Source of the DNA: Ruminiclostridium sp.
GTDB lineage: Bacteria; Bacillota; Clostridia; Oscillospirales; Ruminococcaceae
Assembly (NCBI GenBank): GCA_017465545.1
Contig: JAFTVY010000005.1
Location: forward strand, 1-38,322
Reading direction: 5' to 3'
Length of the DNA: 38,322 nt
The position numbers and the translations under genes are program-made. Position 1 is the first letter of the stretch. Every line of letters starts with the position of its first letter. This document shows, one piece after another, positions 16,224-26,777 of the stretch. The notes beneath the pieces were generated by a model. That model saw only the letters and a list, made by a program, of their open reading frames with translations, made no database searches and was not told where the DNA came from.

Positions 16224-16259
16224 TTATACCATAACCATGAGAAACGGTTATGGTATAAT
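16224..16259 (+). promoter_or_regulatory. Extended -10 promoter embedded in a perfect 13-bp palindrome
   Basis: TTATACCATAACC (16224-16236) and its exact complement (16246-16258) are separated by nine bases. The right arm contains TGGTATAAT, an extended -10 box (TATAAT at 16254-16259). A good -35 at 17 bases is absent. The gene start at 16291 is 31 bases downstream with GGAGG. The overlap suggests an operator for a dimeric regulator, or an alternative hairpin in read-through RNA; this is inference. Confidence 0.5.
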
Positions 16260-16290
16260 TATTATCATTCCTTTAGCTACGGAGGCAGAT

Positions 16291-19164
16291 ATGGAGATAA
16301 AGAACATCAGAATTATCATCTGCACGTCGGATGATAGTGAAATGATAAAGGACGGACGTCAGATAAAGGCTCTTGCAAACGAGCTTAATAATATAAGTAA
16401 TAATGCCTTCATCATCGTGGAAAACGTAAGGGCGTCGCAGGTGGGAGAATATCTTGCTAAGCTTTATGAAAGTGAGCTTGTATTCGTGCTTTTCTACGAT
16501 AGTGTAAGTAAGGAGCAAAGAGAATATTTCGACAGAGCCGTAAGCCTTTATAAAGAAAAATCAGATCCCGTGGTGGTACCCTATATAAAGTACGTGGATG
16601 ATATAGACAACGTGACGGAGGAAATATCAGCTCTGCAGGAATATATAGGCGATGAGCTTCACCTTTACTATAAAAGCTACGGCAGTAGCGAGGCGCTGAA
16701 GCTTGCTGTAATGCTCCAGCTTTGTCAATCGGGGTACGTAGGTCTTGACGTCAGCATAAAGGACGGAAAAATAAGCTACGGCACCGATGAAGAAATAGAT
16801 ACCGCAAATATACCTATGTTTGCCAATAACGACAACTTAAGCTCTCTTAAATCCACCCTTGCAAAGCTTGACAAGACCCTTACCGGATATTTTGAAAATC
16901 CCACACCCGAAAAGCAGGAAAAATATAAATCCGTACTTGCAAAGCGTTCTGCCCTTATGAGACAGATAGTGCAGGCTGAAAAGGATCTCCTTGAAAAAAT
17001 GAAGGAGTTTGTAAGCAGTACCTCGGGAGGAGAACTCGATACAGATCAGATGATGGCGTACCGCTTTATGGAAAACGGTGACGTGGAGCTGGCTTTAGAG
17101 CTTCTTGACAGTACGGCTATATGCGAGGATTTAAAAAACTGCGAAAAGGCAATAGAGACTGCAAAGGAAAATATGCAGAGGGATATAGGTAAGCTCTGCC
17201 AGAGAATAGACGCTCTTGATATGATGGCTTTAACGCCTGAAATAATGAAGGAAAAGCAGGCTCTTTTTGAGGAGATAAGAGGTTATATATTAAAATATCC
17301 TGAGCTTAATCCAATTCCCTTATACAGATACGCCATATTCTTAAAACAGCATAACAATACGGCTTATGCCTATAAGCTTGCAGAAGAATTTTACGGCAGG
17401 GCAAGGGATAAGGCTTCTGTCGGTGCGGCTCTTAATATGATGCTTGAGCTTTCGGTAAGAATGGGGCTGTATGAAAAGGCTATTGAATACGGAAATATAA
17501 TTCTCTCGGATAATGTCTCCCACCCGTCGGAGGTTGCCGCCGCAAGCTATCATCTTGCAAGAGTATATCACGATATGAAGGAGTATGAAACAGCCGAAAG
17601 GCTGTATATACGTTCTGTCGAAACGGAGAGCGAGCTGGCAAAGGTAAGCCCCTACAGCAATGATAAGCTATCCGCTATATATCAGAGCCTGGCGGCTTTG
17701 TACAAGGATATGTGCACAGAAGCTATCGGTATGGATAAGAAAAAATATATAGATAAGGCTTTGCTGTACTGCGAAAAATCGGTATCAGCGGCAAGAAGGA
17801 TGGTGCAGTATAACGATGCTTACTGCTTTAAAGTGGGACTTGCCGAAAGCCTTCAGGCTATGGGAACATTACTTGCAAGCCTTGGCTACAGAGAAGAGGC
17901 AACAGAGTGCTTTGCAGAAAGCGAGGATATACTGAAGATTCTTGTCAGCGACGATCCTGAGGCTTACGAATCGAAGCTTGCTTCTCTTTACAGAAGTATC
18001 GCCACTTTATTTGCTAGTATTTATTATGGCACAAGGCGGAATGGTGACGTGTATTTAAGTACAAGCAGTAAGTATTACGAAAAAGCTATCGGAATATATC
18101 AGAGATATATCATCAGCGGAGAGACAAGGTTCGCAGGTGAGCTTGCAGATATATACGAGAAACTTGGAGAGCTTTATTACAGCAATAAAAATCCTGAAAG
18201 GGCTGTAGCTTATTTTGACAGACAGACGGCGATAGTGGATTCTGTAAAATACGATGACGAAAAGAATTACCATATGCTTTCCGCACTTTATGAAAGAAAC
18301 GGAAGGGTATATGCAACGCTTAAAAACGAGGATAAGTCGATGGGCTGTCATATAAAGTCCGTTAACTATTGTATAAAGCTTGTACAAAAGGAGCCTACCT
18401 ATCTCGGACAGCTTGTCGCATGCCTTTCGTCAATGCTTGACAGTATATTAAGAATCGGTGGAACGGATGCCGCCTATAACGTAATCAACGAATACGTCGG
18501 GGAATACTGTACTCTTGCCCGTCAGGGCAGGCATATCTATGAGGAGAGGATAGCACATCTCTTTTCTGCATTCGGCAATACCGCAAGCGATAGGGGAGAG
18601 CTTCACGATGCCATCGGCTACTATATGAAGGCAATCGAATTCTACGAAAAGGTTGCAGACGATGGCAATACCCTGTGTATTGAAAGACTTGCAGAGCTGA
18701 GTGCCGCAGTAGCAATGCTTCTTTGCAGTAAGGCAGGTGACAAGGAAAACGGCATACTCTACCTCGGAAAAGCCTTCGGCTATTACGGAAAGCTTACCGA
18801 AACGGATTTTCATAAATATGCGGATGACTTTATTAAGGTAACGAGAACTGCCGCAGTTATAAGCCTTGAGCTTTCGGAGGAAGCGGAGGCATACGATTAT
18901 TTTATGGAATGTATCAGAGCCTGCAAGGGAAGACTGCAGGAAAATCCCAAAAGTAATCTGTGGATATTTACAGACTGTCAGTACAACGTTGCAAGGCTAC
19001 TGCTTTCAAGTAATAAGCAAGCCGCAGGGCATCATATAAAAATAGCGTATGAATTCTGCAAGGAACTTAAAGAAACCGACGAAGAACGCTATAATGACCT
19101 GATGCCGAAAATATTACGCCTATATGATATAATCATCCCTGATACAGAAACGAGGCCGCTATGA
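16291..19164 (+). CDS. Large TPR protein with DUF4062/TIR-like N-terminal domain
   Basis: I choose the ATG at 16291 because GGAGG precedes it. An upstream in-frame ATG at 16237 lies inside the palindrome, above the -10 box. The 957-residue protein has no signal peptide. Residues about 1-150 form an alpha/beta domain starting IKNIRIIICTSDD, with LYESELVFVLFYD at about 57-69, resembling DUF4062/TIR-like effector-fold domains. A coiled stretch (about 200-320) follows. From about 325 to 930 there are repeated helical pairs of TPR type (for example AAASYHLARVYHDMKEYETAERLYIRSVE and ELADIYEKLGELYYSNKNPERAVAYFDRQ). Its stop overlaps the start of the next gene by four bases. Such a head plus a TPR solenoid fits a sensor scaffold in a conflict or signalling system, but no function is proven. 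Confidence 0.65.
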   Translation: MEIKNIRIIICTSDDSEMIKDGRQIKALANELNNISNNAFIIVENVRASQVGEYLAKLYESELVFVLFYDSVSKEQREYFDRAVSLYKEKSDPVVVPYIKYVDDIDNVTEEISALQEYIGDELHLYYKSYGSSEALKLAVMLQLCQSGYVGLDVSIKDGKISYGTDEEIDTANIPMFANNDNLSSLKSTLAKLDKTLTGYFENPTPEKQEKYKSVLAKRSALMRQIVQAEKDLLEKMKEFVSSTSGGELDTDQMMAYRFMENGDVELALELLDSTAICEDLKNCEKAIETAKENMQRDIGKLCQRIDALDMMALTPEIMKEKQALFEEIRGYILKYPELNPIPLYRYAIFLKQHNNTAYAYKLAEEFYGRARDKASVGAALNMMLELSVRMGLYEKAIEYGNIILSDNVSHPSEVAAASYHLARVYHDMKEYETAERLYIRSVETESELAKVSPYSNDKLSAIYQSLAALYKDMCTEAIGMDKKKYIDKALLYCEKSVSAARRMVQYNDAYCFKVGLAESLQAMGTLLASLGYREEATECFAESEDILKILVSDDPEAYESKLASLYRSIATLFASIYYGTRRNGDVYLSTSSKYYEKAIGIYQRYIISGETRFAGELADIYEKLGELYYSNKNPERAVAYFDRQTAIVDSVKYDDEKNYHMLSALYERNGRVYATLKNEDKSMGCHIKSVNYCIKLVQKEPTYLGQLVACLSSMLDSILRIGGTDAAYNVINEYVGEYCTLARQGRHIYEERIAHLFSAFGNTASDRGELHDAIGYYMKAIEFYEKVADDGNTLCIERLAELSAAVAMLLCSKAGDKENGILYLGKAFGYYGKLTETDFHKYADDFIKVTRTAAVISLELSEEAEAYDYFMECIRACKGRLQENPKSNLWIFTDCQYNVARLLLSSNKQAAGHHIKIAYEFCKELKETDEERYNDLMPKILRLYDIIIPDTETRPL

Positions 19165-19628
19165 ACAAGGAAAAAATAATTTCAACCTTTATCGCTTCTT
19201 CCATAGTCGAATTCAGGGAGGAAAGGGATTTTCTCCGCTCGGAGCTTTCGGATATAAATCTTGAATATCTTGACAGCCCCTTGCAGTTCAGATTCTTCTT
19301 CTGCGAGGAGGAGGGCGGTGCGGTAAGCCTTGAAGGTAGCCAGAATATCATAAACGAAAAGATAAAAGCCTGCGACCTTTTTGTGGTTCTTTTCGGGCAG
19401 AAGCTGGGTAACGTCACCTGCGAGGAGGTTATACTTGCCGTAGAGGAAAGGCAGAAAAAAGGCACACCGGATATTCTTATCTGCTTTAAAGGTAAGCCTT
19501 CCGGGGCGGTTTATGAATGGTTTTCAGATAATCAGCCTGAGCTTTTGGAAAACAGCGTAAGCTTTTCCGATGAGGAGGAGCTTTGCAGGGTTATTCACAA
19601 CAAGCTGAACGGCAGGTACAAGGTATAA
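19161..19628 (+). CDS. DUF4062-like protein, 155 aa
   Basis: The protein opens with ISTFIASSIVEFREERDFLRSEL (about residues 6-28), close to the DUF4062 pattern in which a strand is followed by a conserved E-x2-RD helix. It continues with FRFFFCEEEGG, a KIKACDLFVVLFGQKLG strand-turn (about 67-83) and EEVILAVEERQ. This is the order of a TIR-like Rossmannoid fold. No NADase glutamate can be assigned with confidence. It overlaps the TPR gene by four bases (ATGA), so the two are made together and probably form a complex. A bidirectional terminator ends the unit. Confidence 0.7.
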   Translation: MNKEKIISTFIASSIVEFREERDFLRSELSDINLEYLDSPLQFRFFFCEEEGGAVSLEGSQNIINEKIKACDLFVVLFGQKLGNVTCEEVILAVEERQKKGTPDILICFKGKPSGAVYEWFSDNQPELLENSVSFSDEEELCRVIHNKLNGRYKV

Positions 19629-19666: not shown

Positions 19667-22195
19667 TTATGCAGTTACAATGCTGTCAGCCTTGTGTAAT
19701 TTCAGCTTTTCTACAGCCTGTTCTCTCATCTTGTACTTTAATATCTTACCTGCCGCATTCATGGGGAAGCCGTCAACGAAGTCAACGTATCTGGGTACCT
19801 TGTGCTTTGCCATATGGGAGCGTACAAAATCCTTGATTTCTTCCTCTGTAGCGGTTTCGCCTTCCTTTAAAACGATGCACGCCATGATTTCTTCGCCGTA
19901 GCTTTCATCGGGAACGCCGATAACCTGAACGTCCTTTATCTTGGGATTTGTATATAAGAATTCTTCAATTTCCTTGGGGTAGATGTTCTCACCGCCACGG
20001 ATGATCATATCCTTGATACGGCCTGTAATCTTGAAGTAGCCGTCCTTTGTACGTCTTGCCAGGTCGCCTGAATGTAACCAGCCGTCAGCGTCGATTGCCG
20101 CCGCAGTAGCCTCAGGCATCTTGTAGTAGCCCTTCATGATGTTGTAGCCTCTTGCACAGAATTCGCCGTCTGTTTCGTCGGGTAATTCTTCGCCCGTTTC
20201 GGGATCGACAATCTTACATTCAACGCCGAAGATAGGACCGCCTACCGTATTTACTCTCGCTTCGATAGAATCGGAGGTCTTGCTCATTGTGGTTGCAGGG
20301 CTTGCCTCTGTCTGACCGTAGGTGATGCAGATTTCAGGCATATGCATCTTTTCGATAACCTCTTCCATAACCTTGATAGGGCAGGGAGAACCAGCCATAA
20401 TACCCGTTCTCATATGTGAGAAATCGGTCTTGTCGAAGTTTTCGTTTTCCAGCATTGCAATGAACATTGTAGGAACACCGTGGAAGGCTGTGATCTTTTC
20501 CTGATTGATGCAGTGCAGACCCTTTCTGGGAGAGAAGGCTGTGATAGGGCTCATGGTAACGCCGTGGGTTACTGATGCTGTCATAGCCAGTACCATACCG
20601 AAGCAATGGAACATAGGTACCTGAATCATCATCTTGTCTGCTGTGGATAAGTCCATACAGTCACCGATAGCCTTACCGTTGTTTACTACGTTGTAGTGGG
20701 TCAGCATAACGCCCTTGGGGAAGCCTGTCGTACCTGAAGTGTACTGCATGTTGCACACGTCGTGCTTGTCGATGGCACGGCGCATATTTTCAACCTCGCT
20801 TAAGGGTACTGTTTCGGATAACGCCATAGCCTCGTCCCAGGTAAAGCAACCGGGCTGCTTTGAATCTGTAGTAATGATGCTCTTCAGTCTGGGGAGTCTT
20901 GCGCTGTTTAACTTACCGGGTTCGCATTCCTTCAGTTCGGGACACAGCTCGTTCATAATAGCCACGTAGTCGCTGTCCTTGTAGCCGTCTACCATTACAA
21001 GTATATCCGTATCGGACTGGCGGAGCAGGTATTCTGCTTCATGTACCTTGTACGCTGTATTTACAGTTACCAGTACCGCACCGATCTTTGTAGCCGCCCA
21101 GAAGGTAATGTACCAGGCAGGTACGTTTGTAGCCCAGATAGCTACGTGACTGCCCTTCTTTGCGCCCATTGCGATAAGAGCACGGGCAAAGGTGTCAACG
21201 TCGTTTCTGAATTCGGGGTAGGTTCTTGTATAGTCAAGCTCTGTATATCTGAAAGCATACTGATCGGGGAATTCTTCACAAACTCTGTCCAGAACGTCAG
21301 GGAAGGTGTAGTCGATAATTCTTTCCTTGGGCCAGATGTACTTACCTGTGCCTCTGTTATCGGTCTGTAAGGGGTGCTTGTGCTTTTTCTTTCTGTAGGG
21401 AGCCATGAAGTTCATGTACTGGGGGAATACGATACCTGCGTCGCACAGATTGTTTGACCAGCGCTTTACCCATTCTAAGGATACGTAACCCTCGTAGCCG
21501 GTAGCCTTAAGAGAATCCAGCATATCCTGAAGAGGCATATCGCCTTCGCCCATCAGCTTATACTGTAACTTTCCGTCAACCATCACGCTGTCCTTTACGT
21601 GGCAGTATCTTATATAAGTGCCGAGGTTTGCAATGGTATCAGCGGCGCTTTCACCGCAGTAGCGGTAGGGGTGGTGCATATCCCATAATGCCGCAACCTC
21701 ACTTCTGCCTACCTTGTCGAGTAATGCACGCAGACGCTTTGTGTCCGCATATACGCCGTTGGTCTCAACCAGCAGGGTAACGCTGCACTTTTCCTTTGCA
21801 ATATCAGCAAGCTTTGTCAGAACGGACGCTACGTAATCGTCATCCACTTCGTCAACGGGCATAGGCTCCTTGTCGCCGAGGATTCTGATGTAGGGTGTGC
21901 CTAACTTTTCCGCAAGCTCTATATAGCTTGTAATTTCGCTTATTGTCTCTGCTTCTCTTTCCTTGTCCTTTAAGGCACAGCCTGAGGAGAGACAGGGAAT
22001 CTCAATATCGATGTCCTTAAGCTTCTTGATGGTAGCGGGCAGGTGCTTTTCTGTAAATGGCTTTGCCTTTACTGCAAAGATGTCCTGACCGAGACCACGG
22101 ATCTCGATTCCGTCGTAGCCTAAGTCCTTTGCCATTGAGTAGATGTCTGTCCAGTCGAAATCAGGACAAGCGAGTGTTGAAAAACTGATTTTCAT
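19667..22195 (-). CDS. Fusion: sugar-phosphate isomerase/epimerase-like TIM barrel + AMP-forming acyl-CoA ligase
   Basis: One 842-residue open frame joins two enzymes. Residues 1 to about 265 are a xylose-isomerase-like TIM barrel (hydroxypyruvate isomerase/AP-endonuclease-2 superfamily). Metal-ligand candidates are E144 (LLVETNG), D172 (LWDMHH), H199 (CHVKD) and E241 (SLEWVKR). After a basic linker (YRKKKHKH, 267-274) comes a complete AMP-dependent acyl-CoA synthetase: YTSGTTGFPKG at 485-495, GQTEASP, GWLHSGD, a GRIKDMIIRGGENIYPKEIE hinge and the C-terminal lysine context AAGKILKYKMRE. The ligase half most resembles medium-chain/FadD-type enzymes. How the halves cooperate is unknown. The gene sits alone behind a T-box leader, implying control by charging of a tRNA. 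AAAGGAAG precedes the ATG. Confidence 0.88.
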   Translation of the reverse strand: MKISFSTLACPDFDWTDIYSMAKDLGYDGIEIRGLGQDIFAVKAKPFTEKHLPATIKKLKDIDIEIPCLSSGCALKDKEREAETISEITSYIELAEKLGTPYIRILGDKEPMPVDEVDDDYVASVLTKLADIAKEKCSVTLLVETNGVYADTKRLRALLDKVGRSEVAALWDMHHPYRYCGESAADTIANLGTYIRYCHVKDSVMVDGKLQYKLMGEGDMPLQDMLDSLKATGYEGYVSLEWVKRWSNNLCDAGIVFPQYMNFMAPYRKKKHKHPLQTDNRGTGKYIWPKERIIDYTFPDVLDRVCEEFPDQYAFRYTELDYTRTYPEFRNDVDTFARALIAMGAKKGSHVAIWATNVPAWYITFWAATKIGAVLVTVNTAYKVHEAEYLLRQSDTDILVMVDGYKDSDYVAIMNELCPELKECEPGKLNSARLPRLKSIITTDSKQPGCFTWDEAMALSETVPLSEVENMRRAIDKHDVCNMQYTSGTTGFPKGVMLTHYNVVNNGKAIGDCMDLSTADKMMIQVPMFHCFGMVLAMTASVTHGVTMSPITAFSPRKGLHCINQEKITAFHGVPTMFIAMLENENFDKTDFSHMRTGIMAGSPCPIKVMEEVIEKMHMPEICITYGQTEASPATTMSKTSDSIEARVNTVGGPIFGVECKIVDPETGEELPDETDGEFCARGYNIMKGYYKMPEATAAAIDADGWLHSGDLARRTKDGYFKITGRIKDMIIRGGENIYPKEIEEFLYTNPKIKDVQVIGVPDESYGEEIMACIVLKEGETATEEEIKDFVRSHMAKHKVPRYVDFVDGFPMNAAGKILKYKMREQAVEKLKLHKADSIVTA

Positions 22196-22265: not shown

Positions 22266-22550
22266 TAAAAAACCCGTCCCAAAGATAATTCTTTGAGACG
22301 GGTGAATATACTTGTTACCCGCGGTACCACTCAAATTGCATTCTCATGCCACTCAGACTCCATTAAGTCTTATGCAGTTACGTTGCAGTTACGGAAAACA
22401 CTACTCATTTTTTACCGTTTATCTATAACAGTAATCCGTTTTCGCATTTTCAGCTCAGAAGGGAGAGGCTATTAAGCTACCGATACTGACTCACACCAAC
22501 CGTCAGCTCTCTGAAATCTTTTCACTGTTGCCGTCTTCGTCACAGCCATT
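22266..22550 (-). promoter_or_regulatory. T-box riboswitch leader
   Basis: On the minus strand the leader begins near 22550. It shows GACGAAG (K-turn side), CAGAGAGCTGAC with the GGTTGGTG distal loop closed by GTCAG, a long middle section, and the T-box core GAGTGGTACCGCG (within 22318-22332). A strong terminator follows: a 12-bp stem CCCGTCTCAAAG/CTTTGGGACGGG with one G-U pair and then six T (22266-22303). TGGT in the core should pair with ACCA of a tRNA having A at the discriminator. The specifier is not certain. If GAAG/CTTC is the helix above the K-turn, the codon is CUC (Leu), but the usual GAA motif before it is missing. Downstream lies only the isomerase/ligase fusion. Confidence 0.88.
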
Positions 22551-22556
22551 GAATGT

Positions 22557-22585
22557 ATGATATCATAATTTTTTTCAGTTGTCAA
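22557..22585 (-). promoter_or_regulatory. Promoter of the T-box leader
   Basis: On the minus strand TTGACA (22580-22585) and TATCAT (22557-22562) with 17-base spacing place the start near 22550, just before the T-box stem I. The 50 bases between it and the end of the gene at 22637 hold A/T-runs but no clear terminator. Confidence 0.8.
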
Positions 22586-22636: not shown

Positions 22637-24592
22637 TTACGGTCTTGTGATATAGGTCATAAGCTTTATCTTCATATAGTCGCAGTCAGAACGTTTTGAA
22701 AGCTCGTTTGCAGGCTTTAAAAGATTATTGTAGAGTGCCGGTACGAATTTGTGTACCGAAGATACGCCGAGCTTCTTGTTATATTCCTCGTAGACCTTGT
22801 AATCCTCTTCAGAAGGACAACTGAAGCCTGAATAAAGGGTGTAATAGCGCCAGCGTTCGTGAAGCAGATCGACAAGGGCGGATAATTCTTCCTGGTTTTC
22901 ACTGCGGAAATAATAATCGTCGTCAGCAGACGTGAAAATGCAGGAGGGGTTTTCGATATACCTCAGCATTGCCTCTTTATCGGGATGTTTAGAGCCGTGT
23001 ATCAGGTATCTTAAGCAGATAGCTTCTTCATTGGTGCTGTCTATATCATACTTGCTGGCATACTTTTCTGCCTGCTCGCTGAACTTTACAGTAAGCTCTG
23101 TAAAGCTCTTTTCGTGGTCGCTACTGTCAGAATGGCAGTTTATTGCATACAGTTTTCTTGAAATCAGGTCAATATCATTTGTGCTTAAATTACTGTGATC
23201 GTATACGGTTTCTATACTGCCGAAGGGTATAAGTCTTTCATCATCGCTGTCAGAGAAGATGAAATCCGATTTCTTGCCATCTCTGATTTTTACGATAATC
23301 GGAGGTATCAATCTGAAAAGCTCCTCGTTACTGTCAGGCATAGCGTTATTATGTATTATTTTTCTAAGTAAATAACGTTTTAAGAATTTTGCGGTTCTTA
23401 TATTGGTTTCGTCGTTATTTGTAGCTATCACACAATAGTCGAAATGCTTTCTGTCAAGGATTTCAGAAAGTTCGTGACTTTCTGCGTTGCAGGATATTAT
23501 TTCGAGTAAGCCCTCATTTTCAAGAGTTCTGATAAAATCGGGACTTTCCATAAGGCGTCTGTCACGGATAGCCTCTCCGTCGCTATCGATTGCGGTAACG
23601 CAGAGCTTTACCGCCTTGCCGTATTTATTAAGGAAGTGACAGCTTCCGAATACGTTGCCTATAAACTGATATCCGAATTTACCCATACCGATAACGGCAA
23701 TATTGACCACCTCAGCGGTATCGCTTACGAAGTTATAAATAGGATAATTCCTCAGTATAGACTGAACGGAGCTTTTGTAGGTGTCAAAGATGTAGACGTT
23801 CACTTCATCGCTACCGGAATATTTATATATCAGCGATTTATACCTTTTTTCAGATACGGAGTCGGTATCGAAGATGTTAAGAGTGAGCTTCGGGGTGTAG
23901 CTACCGCTTGTGTACTTTTCTGTAAAGCTTATTATTTCTCCTGTTCTTATGACGCCGTCAAAGCAGAAATCCCATATTTCTATATGCTTTACTATTCTGT
24001 CGCTGAATCTTATATCAGCCAGCTTATCAGTAGTTACAATAGCGGGAATCGTCGCACCCTTCAGTAAATCTGCATTTCCGTTTAAGAATACGAAAAATAA
24101 TGCGTTTCTTTCTCTGCCGCTGGGGGTACTGTTATACTTTGTGGTTGCCGTTATAAGTGTTTCGGGAGTGAGCTCGGTGAAGATAAAGATATGTTCCTTC
24201 TTTATCCTCTTCTTTGTGAACAGACTATTGATTTTATTGAGAGTGGATATCAGCACACCACCTGCTGATAAGGGAGCTATAAACCAGAGGAAATACAGCC
24301 ATTCGCAGTAGATATTATCAAAAATATTCAGCTTTGTGAAGTTATCTACGAAATCTGTATTTGCTTCGCCGCCCATTGCTTTTATTGATGAACCGATAGC
24401 GTGCAGTATATCCGAAGCGTTGTGCTTGTCCGTATCTGCAAGACCGATAGTTAATATCAGCATCTGCAAAAAGCAGGAAAGCGCTATCGTAAATACAATG
24501 GTATCAAGTTTTCCTTTTCTCTTTACAAGTCTCGTTACTGAGATTATTGTAGCTATCAGCAAAGCGACAGCCAATATAAAGCATATAATCAT
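22637..24592 (-). CDS. Membrane protein with TrkA-N-like Rossmann domains and possible RyR-like C-terminus
   Basis: A 651-residue protein. Three hydrophobic segments (about 2-20, 30-53 and 97-117) anchor the N-terminus. Residues 134-290 look like a first Rossmannoid domain (HIFIFTELTPETL). Residues 295-480 are a second with a clear dinucleotide loop GMGKFG at 302-307, like TrkA-N/RCK gating domains. Around 566-640 the pattern LLHERWRYYTLYSGF...KFVPALYNNLLKPANEL resembles a bacterial RyR-like domain, though weakly. RCK-type domains bind nucleotides and gate ion channels. With only three membrane segments this may be a ligand-gated channel subunit or a membrane effector. It is the third gene of a unit whose first gene is a TIR protein (41 bases after the middle gene). 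CGGAGT precedes the ATG. Confidence 0.62.
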   Translation of the reverse strand: MIICFILAVALLIATIISVTRLVKRKGKLDTIVFTIALSCFLQMLILTIGLADTDKHNASDILHAIGSSIKAMGGEANTDFVDNFTKLNIFDNIYCEWLYFLWFIAPLSAGGVLISTLNKINSLFTKKRIKKEHIFIFTELTPETLITATTKYNSTPSGRERNALFFVFLNGNADLLKGATIPAIVTTDKLADIRFSDRIVKHIEIWDFCFDGVIRTGEIISFTEKYTSGSYTPKLTLNIFDTDSVSEKRYKSLIYKYSGSDEVNVYIFDTYKSSVQSILRNYPIYNFVSDTAEVVNIAVIGMGKFGYQFIGNVFGSCHFLNKYGKAVKLCVTAIDSDGEAIRDRRLMESPDFIRTLENEGLLEIISCNAESHELSEILDRKHFDYCVIATNNDETNIRTAKFLKRYLLRKIIHNNAMPDSNEELFRLIPPIIVKIRDGKKSDFIFSDSDDERLIPFGSIETVYDHSNLSTNDIDLISRKLYAINCHSDSSDHEKSFTELTVKFSEQAEKYASKYDIDSTNEEAICLRYLIHGSKHPDKEAMLRYIENPSCIFTSADDDYYFRSENQEELSALVDLLHERWRYYTLYSGFSCPSEEDYKVYEEYNKKLGVSSVHKFVPALYNNLLKPANELSKRSDCDYMKIKLMTYITRP

Positions 24593-24633
24593 TGTTTTGT
24601 TTTACTCCGTTTTGTATAATGTAAGAAGTGCCT

Positions 24634-25218
24634 TCAGTCAGGCTTTACGATATCGTGGAATATTTTCTGTACCTCGGCAGAAAAATCTCTGTAGCCGTCG
24701 GGAACGGAATTGTATCCGCTCATTTCCACAGTTGTGCCGTCGGAAAGCTTCATATAAAAGGTGTAACTGTCGCCGCCGTCAAGCATACCCTTCGGGGTAG
24801 GACTTTTAAAGCTGCCGTTAAAGGTGATGGCTCCGTACTTTTCTGCAAGCTCCTTTATTTCAGTCGGAGCGGAATTGTCAGAAAGTCTTACCGATTTAGC
24901 TATTTCGCACTCCTTTACGATATCCGCAAATTCGGAATATCTTTCCTCGGTAGTCTGTCTGCCTTCCTTATCCATTGTCATTTCATAGCTGTCGGGACTG
25001 TTTGACGATATCTTCATAAAAGTACCCTTATCAGTCTTTTTCAGTATGTAATGACTGCCCATAGCCATACCGCAGTAATGCATATAGAGGATTTCTATTT
25101 CTGTATTTTCAGGGAAGGGAACAGGCGTTATTTCAGGAACTTTCAGGACAGGCGGCTCTTTCCCTTTGTTGCGGTTTTTAAATGCTTTTTTTCTCTTGAA
25201 CAGGTTTAAAATAAACAT
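24634..25218 (-). CDS. Hypothetical protein, 194 aa, middle gene of the TIR unit
   Basis: I start it at the ATG at 25218, which follows AGAAAGGAAAGCT; a TTG seven codons upstream lacks a ribosome site. I do not recognise a family. The N-terminus is strongly basic (LFKRKKAFKNRNKGK), with no signal peptide or membrane helix. A beta-rich domain follows with strands such as ILYMHYCGMAMGSHYILKKT, GAITFNGSFKSP and YTFYMKLSDGTTVEMSGYN, then a C-terminal helix. It lies 51 bases after the TIR gene and 41 before the membrane Rossmann gene, all one direction, so it is likely part of the same system. The basic N-terminus may associate with membrane or nucleic acid; that is inference. Confidence 0.6.
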   Translation of the reverse strand: MFILNLFKRKKAFKNRNKGKEPPVLKVPEITPVPFPENTEIEILYMHYCGMAMGSHYILKKTDKGTFMKISSNSPDSYEMTMDKEGRQTTEERYSEFADIVKECEIAKSVRLSDNSAPTEIKELAEKYGAITFNGSFKSPTPKGMLDGGDSYTFYMKLSDGTTVEMSGYNSVPDGYRDFSAEVQKIFHDIVKPD

Positions 25219-25269
25219 AGCTTTCCTTTCTGTATGCAAGGAATCGTCAGTATTTTAATATCGGCAGTA

Positions 25270-26709
25270 TCATTCCGCAATTTTATTTATTACGTCGGTG
25301 GTAAGTCTTATCTTCATCGCAGGGCGTATGCCGAAGCCTTCAACGCCTACGGGGTAGCTTATTACCTTGTTTTCAGCGTAGCTGTTGCAGACAAGATAAC
25401 CCTCGTAGCCGGCGGCACCGCCGTTGTCACGTAACCACCAGTAATGATCCTCTACGCCCAAATCAAGTGAATAAGCGCCGTAAATCGTTGATTTGTTCTG
25501 TTCTACCGCCTTTTCGGTAGGCTTTGCGGCAATGCTTACGTCTGCCGTCTGCAGAAGCTCCAGCTCGTCCTTTGAGAGCAGGAATACAAGATCGTCGGTG
25601 GTAACGTCCATAGCTCCGTTATTCGTCTTTATGGGAGTGGGGACTATAGCCGTCTTTTCCTCTCTGGTAAAGCCGTTCAGAAAGCCCGCTTCCTTATCGT
25701 AGCCGTTTACCGTTTCGGGCATAGCGGCGCTTGTGGGAGGCTGATCGTTATACTGAACGTTCTCTCTGTCGGAATTGAGCCAGGTGCGGATGTTGGACAG
25801 ATGCCACTGATTACTGCCTCTGAGCTTTTTCTGTGTCATCATGGGAAGCGTGCTTATATCCTCGTTCCAGTAGTCGTCGTTTCCGATATAGTTGTATTTT
25901 CCGCTTTCTGCCGCATCGTAGCACTTCATAGTGAGAATGTTATCGGAGACTACAAAGGCAATATTGCCTTCAACTGTCAGTATGCGCCATTTTATCGGCT
26001 CATCGTTATAGGTACCGAAGGTTATGGTATCGCCCGGCTTTACCTCTTCAAGTCCGCCTACCTCTCCGGGAGGAAGGATTGTAACGCTTTCGTCCTTTGT
26101 AGTACCGTCGGTGCTTTCTGTTACAGCGGAGCTGTTTGTCGTACTTTCCTGAGAGGAAGATACACTACCATTGCTGCCATTGCCGTTTATCAGCACGATA
26201 AGCAGTATGATAAGAGCAATTATACCGATAACTGCCGCAATACAGATTGCAACGGGGAAGGGCTTTTTGCTCTTTGCGGCTGAGTCTGTTTTTGCTTCGG
26301 AGCTTGTATCCACCTTCTTTTCCTTTATCTGAAGTCCGTTAACGCCTTCAAGCAGCTTGCCGAAACCGGTGTCTGTATCGGTGTTAAGCCACTGGTGTGA
26401 CATAAGGAAGTATTCCATTGATTTTGTCAGGGCAACTTCCTCCGTTTTATAGACTATTATAGGCAGATCAAGACTTACCGCTCTTTCAATTTCTCTTAAA
26501 ACGTGGGGTGATTCGTTGGACTTTTGCGAAAGCACCAAAATAAGCGCATCACTGCCGTCTATCCCGTTCATGATCTCTTCGGCGTAGGGAAAGCCTGAAC
26601 GTATATCACGGGGTGCAAAAAAACAGCTGTGTCCGTTCTTTTCCAGATAGCTGCATATATTTTCCGAAATATCTGCATTTGCAGACGAATGGGAAATAAA
26701 TATCCTCAT
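25270..26709 (-). CDS. TIR domain - membrane helix - DUF6273 protein
   Basis: A 479-residue protein. Residues 1 to about 125 are a TIR domain: RIFISHSSANAD at 2-13, CFFAPRDI at 29-36 and GSDALILVLSQKSNESPHVLREIERA, where E73 is the candidate NADase glutamate. Residues about 152-174 are a single membrane helix. A Ser/Thr-rich linker (about 178-215) follows. Residues about 225-479 match the DUF6273 pattern (GDTITFGTYNDEPIKWRIL..., then NIRTWLNSD and GFTREEKTAIV). With no signal peptide the TIR end should be cytosolic and DUF6273 outside: a receptor-like layout. It is first of three minus-strand genes with its own promoter; GGAGAGAGG precedes the ATG. The TIR assignment is strong and the topology inferred. 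Confidence 0.85.
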   Translation of the reverse strand: MRIFISHSSANADISENICSYLEKNGHSCFFAPRDIRSGFPYAEEIMNGIDGSDALILVLSQKSNESPHVLREIERAVSLDLPIIVYKTEEVALTKSMEYFLMSHQWLNTDTDTGFGKLLEGVNGLQIKEKKVDTSSEAKTDSAAKSKKPFPVAICIAAVIGIIALIILLIVLINGNGSNGSVSSSQESTTNSSAVTESTDGTTKDESVTILPPGEVGGLEEVKPGDTITFGTYNDEPIKWRILTVEGNIAFVVSDNILTMKCYDAAESGKYNYIGNDDYWNEDISTLPMMTQKKLRGSNQWHLSNIRTWLNSDRENVQYNDQPPTSAAMPETVNGYDKEAGFLNGFTREEKTAIVPTPIKTNNGAMDVTTDDLVFLLSKDELELLQTADVSIAAKPTEKAVEQNKSTIYGAYSLDLGVEDHYWWLRDNGGAAGYEGYLVCNSYAENKVISYPVGVEGFGIRPAMKIRLTTDVINKIAE

Positions 26710-26748: not shown

Positions 26749-26777
26749 ATTGTAGCACAAAAAAGCGGATTTTTCAA
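26749..26777 (-). promoter_or_regulatory. Promoter of the TIR unit
   Basis: On the minus strand TTGAAA (26772-26777) and TACAAT (26749-26754) are 17 bases apart, about 40 bases above the TIR start codon. It is divergent from the MBOAT promoter 47 bases away. Confidence 0.72.

Follow-up and report, generated by a model that had tools for sequence, protein, structure and literature searches.

The window analysed here, a stretch of 38,322 nucleotides from the gut bacterium Ruminiclostridium sp. (GenBank assembly GCA_017465545.1, contig JAFTVY010000005.1; contig 94 of the 112 that make up a 2.6 Mb genome), carries a unit of three genes, A, B and C, in which a TIR receptor is probably paired with a membrane protein that would respond to its signal. 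Gene A (25270..26709) encodes a receptor-like protein of 479 residues, with a TIR domain, one membrane helix and a DUF6273 domain. Gene B (24634..25218) encodes a protein of 194 residues with no family match, and gene C (22637..24592) a protein of 651 residues, with three membrane helices, two RCK-like Rossmann parts and a RyR-like tail. In an open reading frame (ORF) check of the window, all three lie on the - strand in the order A-B-C, with gaps of 51 bases between A and B and 41 bases between B and C, in agreement with an original prediction made from the letters of this DNA. We put the overall model, with A as receptor and messenger maker and C as membrane responder, at a probability of about 0.5; that the TIR protein and C form a functional pair is highly probable.

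In the proposed mechanism, the lectin-like DUF6273 domain of A would bind a ligand outside the cell, such as a phage, neighbour or host glycoprotein, and this binding would cluster the TIR domains inside. The clustered TIR domains would turn nicotinamide adenine dinucleotide (NAD+) into an ADP-ribose-derived messenger, for example an isomer of cyclic ADP-ribose (cADPR). The RyR-like tail of C would bind the messenger and the RCK-like parts would pass the change on, upon which the three-helix part would open or cluster, altering ion flow or membrane integrity.

The pairing is seen most directly in the gene neighbourhoods of distant C homologues. Profile searches for C gave a match in 29 of 391 class genomes and in 3 of 398 phylum genomes, and in 4 of 16 and 4 of 9 genomes of two small families. 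Loci were taken from 15 of the 28 class genomes other than that of the window, the other 13 having weak partial matches; six more came from the small families (one of these, L078, gave no C-like protein), and two phylum matches were not taken. The resulting 25 C-like loci, with a protein of at least 300 residues (the window, L014-L017, L047-L061 and L073-L077), include some short ones, such as L058. Six of them have a same-strand TIR gene no more than 1 kb away (the window, L014 in genome G024, L015 in G033, L047, L048 and L074), and in a seventh (L016, in G021) the TIR gene is 5.3 kb from C. All six are among the ten best-scoring C-like loci, eight of which were used to build the profile. In L047, L048 and L074, which represent three other lineages, the C homologue is less than 300 bases from the TIR gene: C precedes the TIR gene with a 4-base overlap in L047 (C identity 15%), the order is C-RyR-TIR in L048 (18%), and the TIR gene precedes C with an 8-base overlap in L074 (19%). 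The TIRs of these three loci carry differing attached parts. TIR-C adjacency has arisen with different TIRs and in different orders in other lineages, and this evidence strengthens the principal guess of the original prediction, that the TIR makes a signal which the membrane protein answers. Among plasmids and phages, no relative of C was found at E 1e-5.

RyR genes show an association with TIR genes in the family as well. PF02026 gave 37 matches (35 above the cut-off) in 30 of 396 family genomes, and a separate TIR_2 search of these 30 genomes gave 65 matches. A TIR gene lies within 5 kb of 18 of the 37 RyR matches (15 genomes) and within 3 kb of 13, where 0.34 and 0.21, respectively, would be expected at random placement, with genome sizes rounded and the relatedness of the genomes not corrected for. 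By gene order, a TIR stands within two genes of 17 of the 37. The 5 kb association is found for 3 of the 14 highest-scoring RyR matches and for 15 of the remaining 23. In locus L184 (3222-10023), a C homologue of 617 residues, a channel protein of 520 residues and a TIR protein of 1,112 residues form an operon with gaps of 25 and 21 bases. The 520-residue protein combines Ion_trans_2 (50.1 bits), the motif TTVGYGD, an RCK-like part and a RyR domain (28.9 bits; cut-off 27.4), and the K+ filter pattern occurs only here and in the duplicate locus L152 among the loci then in hand. As a possible TIR-gated ion channel, this operon is the strongest candidate seen here.

RyR genes occur in further settings. 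In L125 (759-2606; genome G039 of the same genus, without C), the end of a canonical RyR gene lies one base ahead of a gene encoding a TIR-helix-MORN protein. On an Arcobacter plasmid (L223), genes for TrkA_N, RyR and DUF4062-TPR proteins stand in a row, in a stretch that also holds a type I restriction gene and recombinases. On a Priestia plasmid (L225), a RyR gene directly follows an annotated nucleotide cyclase gene, with a TIR 1.4 kb further on, on the other strand, and a gene annotated as a Pycsar effector nearby; from this context, TIR signals may not be the only ones that RyR domains read. The stretch around a Methylobacterium plasmid RyR gene holds a SIR2 gene and no annotated TIR.

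Within the genus (71 genomes, that of the window included), C is present in four: the window genome, G024 (98% identity), G033 (92%) and G021 (66%). A has some match in 24 of the 71, but its full-length relatives (61-77%) are confined to G024, G033 and G021; the next four relatives (G018, G020, G036 and G038; about 42-53% in pieces) occur without C. In G024 and G033, C shows the highest conservation among the three proteins; in G021 the TIR of A (70.5%) stands above C (66%), and the non-TIR part of A is least conserved in all three relatives (74, 66 and 60%). A single-sequence search of the 396 family genomes gave one further C homologue, in G289 (about 20% identity), and the nearest C records in a named collection are metagenome-assembled genomes labelled Ruminiclostridium sp. 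(goat colon and water deer colon) and Oscillospiraceae bacterium.

A-B-C is intact in the two further species, G024 and G033; in G021, C is found in its usual place without B, and four ORFs separate it from A, which is encoded on the same strand 5,329 bases upstream. The original prediction had tied its reading to the conservation of all three genes together, which holds for A and C, both found in all four C-bearing genomes. B is clearly present in only three of the 71 genomes (the window genome, G024 with 93% and G033 with 82%), with three more partial matches at E ~5e-4, and was not seen in the distant TIR-C loci; a role for it as an integral part is not supported. Since one further species keeps A and C without B, we take A plus C as the core and B as a clade-specific accessory. 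The ATG of B is preceded by an AAGGA-type site. B has no match reaching the cut-off in Pfam, NCBIfam or PADLOC; a structural relative was sought and none was convincing. It had been described as basic, whereas its overall composition is 27 K+R against 29 D+E and only its start is basic.

The narrow distribution could mean that inheritance alone keeps A and C side by side, each with a task of its own: A, B and C are adjacent in only 3 of the 71 genus genomes, B has been lost in G021, and in four genomes the closest relatives of A that occur without C directly adjoin a DHH-DHHA1 phosphoesterase gene instead. This reading is very unlikely given the TIR-C adjacency with different TIRs and orders in other lineages and the excess of TIR genes near RyR genes, both of which argue for a joint function of A and C.

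The RyR-like tail of C (residues 563-651; 22640..22906, - strand) was assigned by family only, and it appears to be homologous to the RyR domain through its relatives (transitivity) rather than directly, which makes it a distant relative of the ryanodine receptor part to which adenine-type ligands bind. PF02026 matches at E 0.01 or better in 4 of 18 C-family members. The 18-row C-family profile finds the bacterial RyR structure 3nrt (E 0.0031) and the RyR1 chimera 6uhi, whose E value of 1.5e-7 derives from two copies of the stretch seen in 3nrt (0.008 and 0.016 for the single stretches). Compared with stand-alone RyR proteins, the tails of five TIR- or RyR-linked C relatives gave a probability of 90.5 (E 1.6e-7) and those of four C-family members without a TIR gave 90.7. 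Within the tail, the RyR pocket residues vary least: R580, W581 and H614 occur in 18 of 18 rows and H578, G589 and D638 in 17 of 18, in an alignment in which four rows are near copies of each other and the D638 column falls in a gappy part. The preprint PMC13232231 reports that a phage protein, RyDEP, binds or cleaves 2'cADPR and 3'cADPR with H75, W78, H100 and D117; by motif and spacing, H578, W581, H614 and D638 of C would correspond to these residues.

The same correspondence admits an off-switch, in which the tail of C, like phage RyDEP, would bind or cleave what the TIR makes, the membrane part serving only to anchor C beside the receptor. The RyDEP catalytic pair fits H578 and D638 of C, and we count on the same side that six of eight phage RyDEP relatives bound while only the first enzyme cleaved, as given in passages of PMC13232231, and that a possible turnover enzyme, the DHH phosphoesterase, is repeatedly found next to TIR genes. 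Turnover, however, would need no more than a soluble RyR domain, and a membrane output is suggested by the RCK-like parts and by the true K+ channel of L184; an off-switch is unlikely. It is rather probable that the RyR-like tail of C reads a nucleotide signal.

The DHH-DHHA1 phosphoesterase, of about 500 residues, was seen by TIR or RyR genes in L118-L121, L169, L188, L103, L122, L180, L186, L100 and L185, with the arrangements TIR-DHH-RyR in L169 and TIR-DHH-RyR-tailed protein in L188. A TIR lies within 4.5 kb in 11 of 12 distinct DHH loci, a biased sample of loci chosen for TIR, RyR or C. This enzyme might remove or remodel the signal.

By sequence, C has an RCK layout, with three helices followed by two RCK-like parts. 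Hydropathy places the membrane part at 24242..24592 (- strand; helices at residues 1-19, 32-50 and 99-117). The first RCK-like part (residues 126-290; 23723..24217, - strand) was identified by a match of the C-family profile to the L184 K+ channel, in its RCK part, at 34.1 bits and E 2.2e-9 in a comparison with 1,689 ORFs. The second (residues 294-480; 23153..23713, - strand) contains the GMGKFG loop at residues 302-307 and a TrkA_N match (PF02254, Pfam) at residues 350-425 with 27.8 bits, above the cut-off of 23.8. In this, C agrees with the original prediction of a three-helix membrane protein with a GMGKFG nucleotide loop. The C-family profile also aligns helix 2, loop and helix 3 with the K+ pore of L184, and by the positive-inside rule the loop between helices 2 and 3 of C would face outward, where a pore loop sits. 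A pore in C is not claimed, because most of this score derives from the first RCK part, and the membrane part on its own reaches only 5.9 bits. Neither RCK channels nor CASTOR/POLLUX are among the 22 PDB matches (E up to 10) of the C-family profile, which is a comparison of profiles. The flow of another ion, or clustering as described for TM-macro ThsA (PMC11204291), is possible as the output of C; that the output is ion flow or membrane permeability is a tentative proposal, with the odds slightly against it.

In protein A, the TIR domain (26353..26703, - strand) matches TIR_2 (PF13676, Pfam) at residues 3-119 with 63.2 bits (cut-off 28), a single membrane helix (residues 155-173; 26191..26247, - strand) is indicated by hydropathy, and DUF6273 (PF19789; 25309..25833, - strand) is matched at residues 293-467 with 59.6 bits (cut-off 23.5). 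The candidate catalytic residue E73 (26491-26493) is kept in A and its three orthologues, and its column holds Glu in 13 of 14 aligned TIRs and Asp in L074; each element of A named in the original prediction was thereby recovered. TIR domains use a glutamate in catalysis, and consumption of NAD+ or formation of a cADPR-type product is a candidate activity of A. Matches of A to ThsB (PADLOC) are weak, with a best E value of 6.5e-4. The window genome has nine TIR_2 matches, and at least two of the other TIR proteins appear by eye to combine the TIR with a helix and another large part.

The TIR of A could instead be a scaffold and not an enzyme, with A and C meeting physically and the RCK-like parts of C answering ordinary NAD(H), ATP or ADP, which TrkA-N domains are well established to bind. 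Passages of PMC9092222 report that some gut TIRs make ADP-ribose or cADPR variants and that many of those tested were without NADase activity. The conservation of E73 in A and its orthologues, of Glu in 13 of the 14 aligned TIRs, and of the RyR pocket residues in the tail of C, argues against a scaffold, which we consider distinctly unlikely.

The outside part of A belongs to a domain family with surface roles. A matches the solved IgA protease chain 9qa6 (E 1.9e-10), and passages of PMC12402451 describe a wall-anchored gut IgA protease that begins with DUF6273. According to passages of PMC10743442, DUF6273 resembles a C-type lectin in predicted models and is carried by phages in hypermutated proteins thought to bind receptors. 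A hypermutation repeat for the ectodomain of A was considered and dropped, as the window holds no second copy (the rest of the genome was not searched).

Several observations weigh against the model. In the stretch examined, no TIR was found in the other 18 of the 25 C-like loci; the 15 lower-scoring, more distant loci are all without one, as are L017 and L049 among the top ten, and L073 consists of C and RyR followed by the contig end, with no TIR in the stretch. A TIR is missing within two genes of 20 of the 37 RyR genes, and none lies near the stand-alone RyR of the window genome itself (L160). C has no K+ selectivity filter, and its membrane part has no significant similarity to the L184 channel. 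The possible RyR-like end of C in the original prediction is supported by homology through family members and not by a direct match, since Pfam finds no PF02026 in C itself; the window-clade tail alone gave a probability of 0.2 against stand-alone RyR proteins, compared with 0.1 for the reversed control. Finally, Pfam and PADLOC scans recognised no defence genes in the immediate flanks of A-B-C.

A consensus scan placed a promoter-like site (26749..26777, - strand; TTGAAA-17-TACAAT, with TG preceding the second hexamer) about 40 bases 5' of the ATG of A, matching 10 of 12 consensus positions. The single promoter proposed for the unit was thus found as a site; taken alone it is weak evidence, because the region holds 21 promoter-like sites against 9.4 in shuffles. 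At the 3' side of C, a promoter-like site at 22585 and a T-box leader both serve the next gene, and the unit is therefore taken to end at C. The T-box leader (22291-22552, - strand; 83.2 bits, E 1.2e-18, below the gathering score of 93) precedes a fused sugar-isomerase-like/AMP-ligase gene (19667-22195), an unusual gene for a T-box. Across 30 AMP-ligase loci compared, C lies upstream of this gene only in the four C-bearing genomes; the neighbours are too variable to show a clean insertion (empty site) at the place of C. Elsewhere in the window (16237-19628, + strand), a gene for a 975-residue TPR protein overlaps that of a 155-residue DUF4062 protein by 4 bases, a pair missing from the corresponding place in G033. 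On the Arcobacter plasmid and in L076, as well as by eye in L171, DUF4062 proteins likewise neighbour a RyR or C-like gene, and the pair in the window may belong to the same theme.

The window unit may be one form of a wider bacterial TIR-to-RyR axis, in which the cADPR-type messengers made by TIR receptors are read directly by the RyR domains of RCK-gated membrane proteins, true ion channels among them, the reading of TIR products being the old job of the RyR domain; this is a conjecture that may well be wrong. No paper on a TIR-C pairing was among the literature matches listed. A 2015 Nucleic Acids Research survey of nucleotide systems may mention RyR. In animals, the direct action of cADPR on ryanodine receptors has long been disputed. 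Passages of PMC13232231 raise the possibility of such direct action again. With bacterial units in which a TIR, as a possible cADPR-type enzyme, neighbours a RyR-domain membrane protein, in one case a genuine K+ channel, the question would become testable with purified parts. If the model is true, A and C would be a bacterial counterpart of this disputed signalling link, and TIR immune systems would gain a membrane responder of a new build.

A and C resemble known systems, from which they also differ. Like the RCK-gated channels (K+ channels and CASTOR/POLLUX), C has membrane helices followed by two RCK-like parts, but it is without the K+ filter, and the similarity of its membrane part to that of the L184 channel is not significant. 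The ligand residues H-W-H-D of the phage RyDEP and RyR R12 domain (PF02026), as given in passages of PMC13232231, fit the tail of C, whereas RyDEP is a phage counter-defence protein without a membrane part. DUF6273 is common to A, the phage tentaclins (passages of PMC10743442) and the gut IgA protease (passages of PMC12402451), which are outside or phage-surface proteins; in A it is joined through a helix to a TIR. The A-B-C unit is not Thoeris by definition, because no ThsA domain (SIR2-SLOG or TM-macro) was found in B or C with Pfam, NCBIfam or PADLOC. Nevertheless, the form of Thoeris with TM-macro ThsA, as described in passages of PMC11204291, likewise combines a TIR protein with a membrane protein that carries a nucleotide-binding domain, and there the membrane part is clustered by an ADP-ribose-type signal. 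In place of the macro domain, C has RCK-like parts and a RyR-like tail, and A carries a helix and an outside domain besides its TIR; A and C would work as a system in which a TIR signal acts on a membrane effector.

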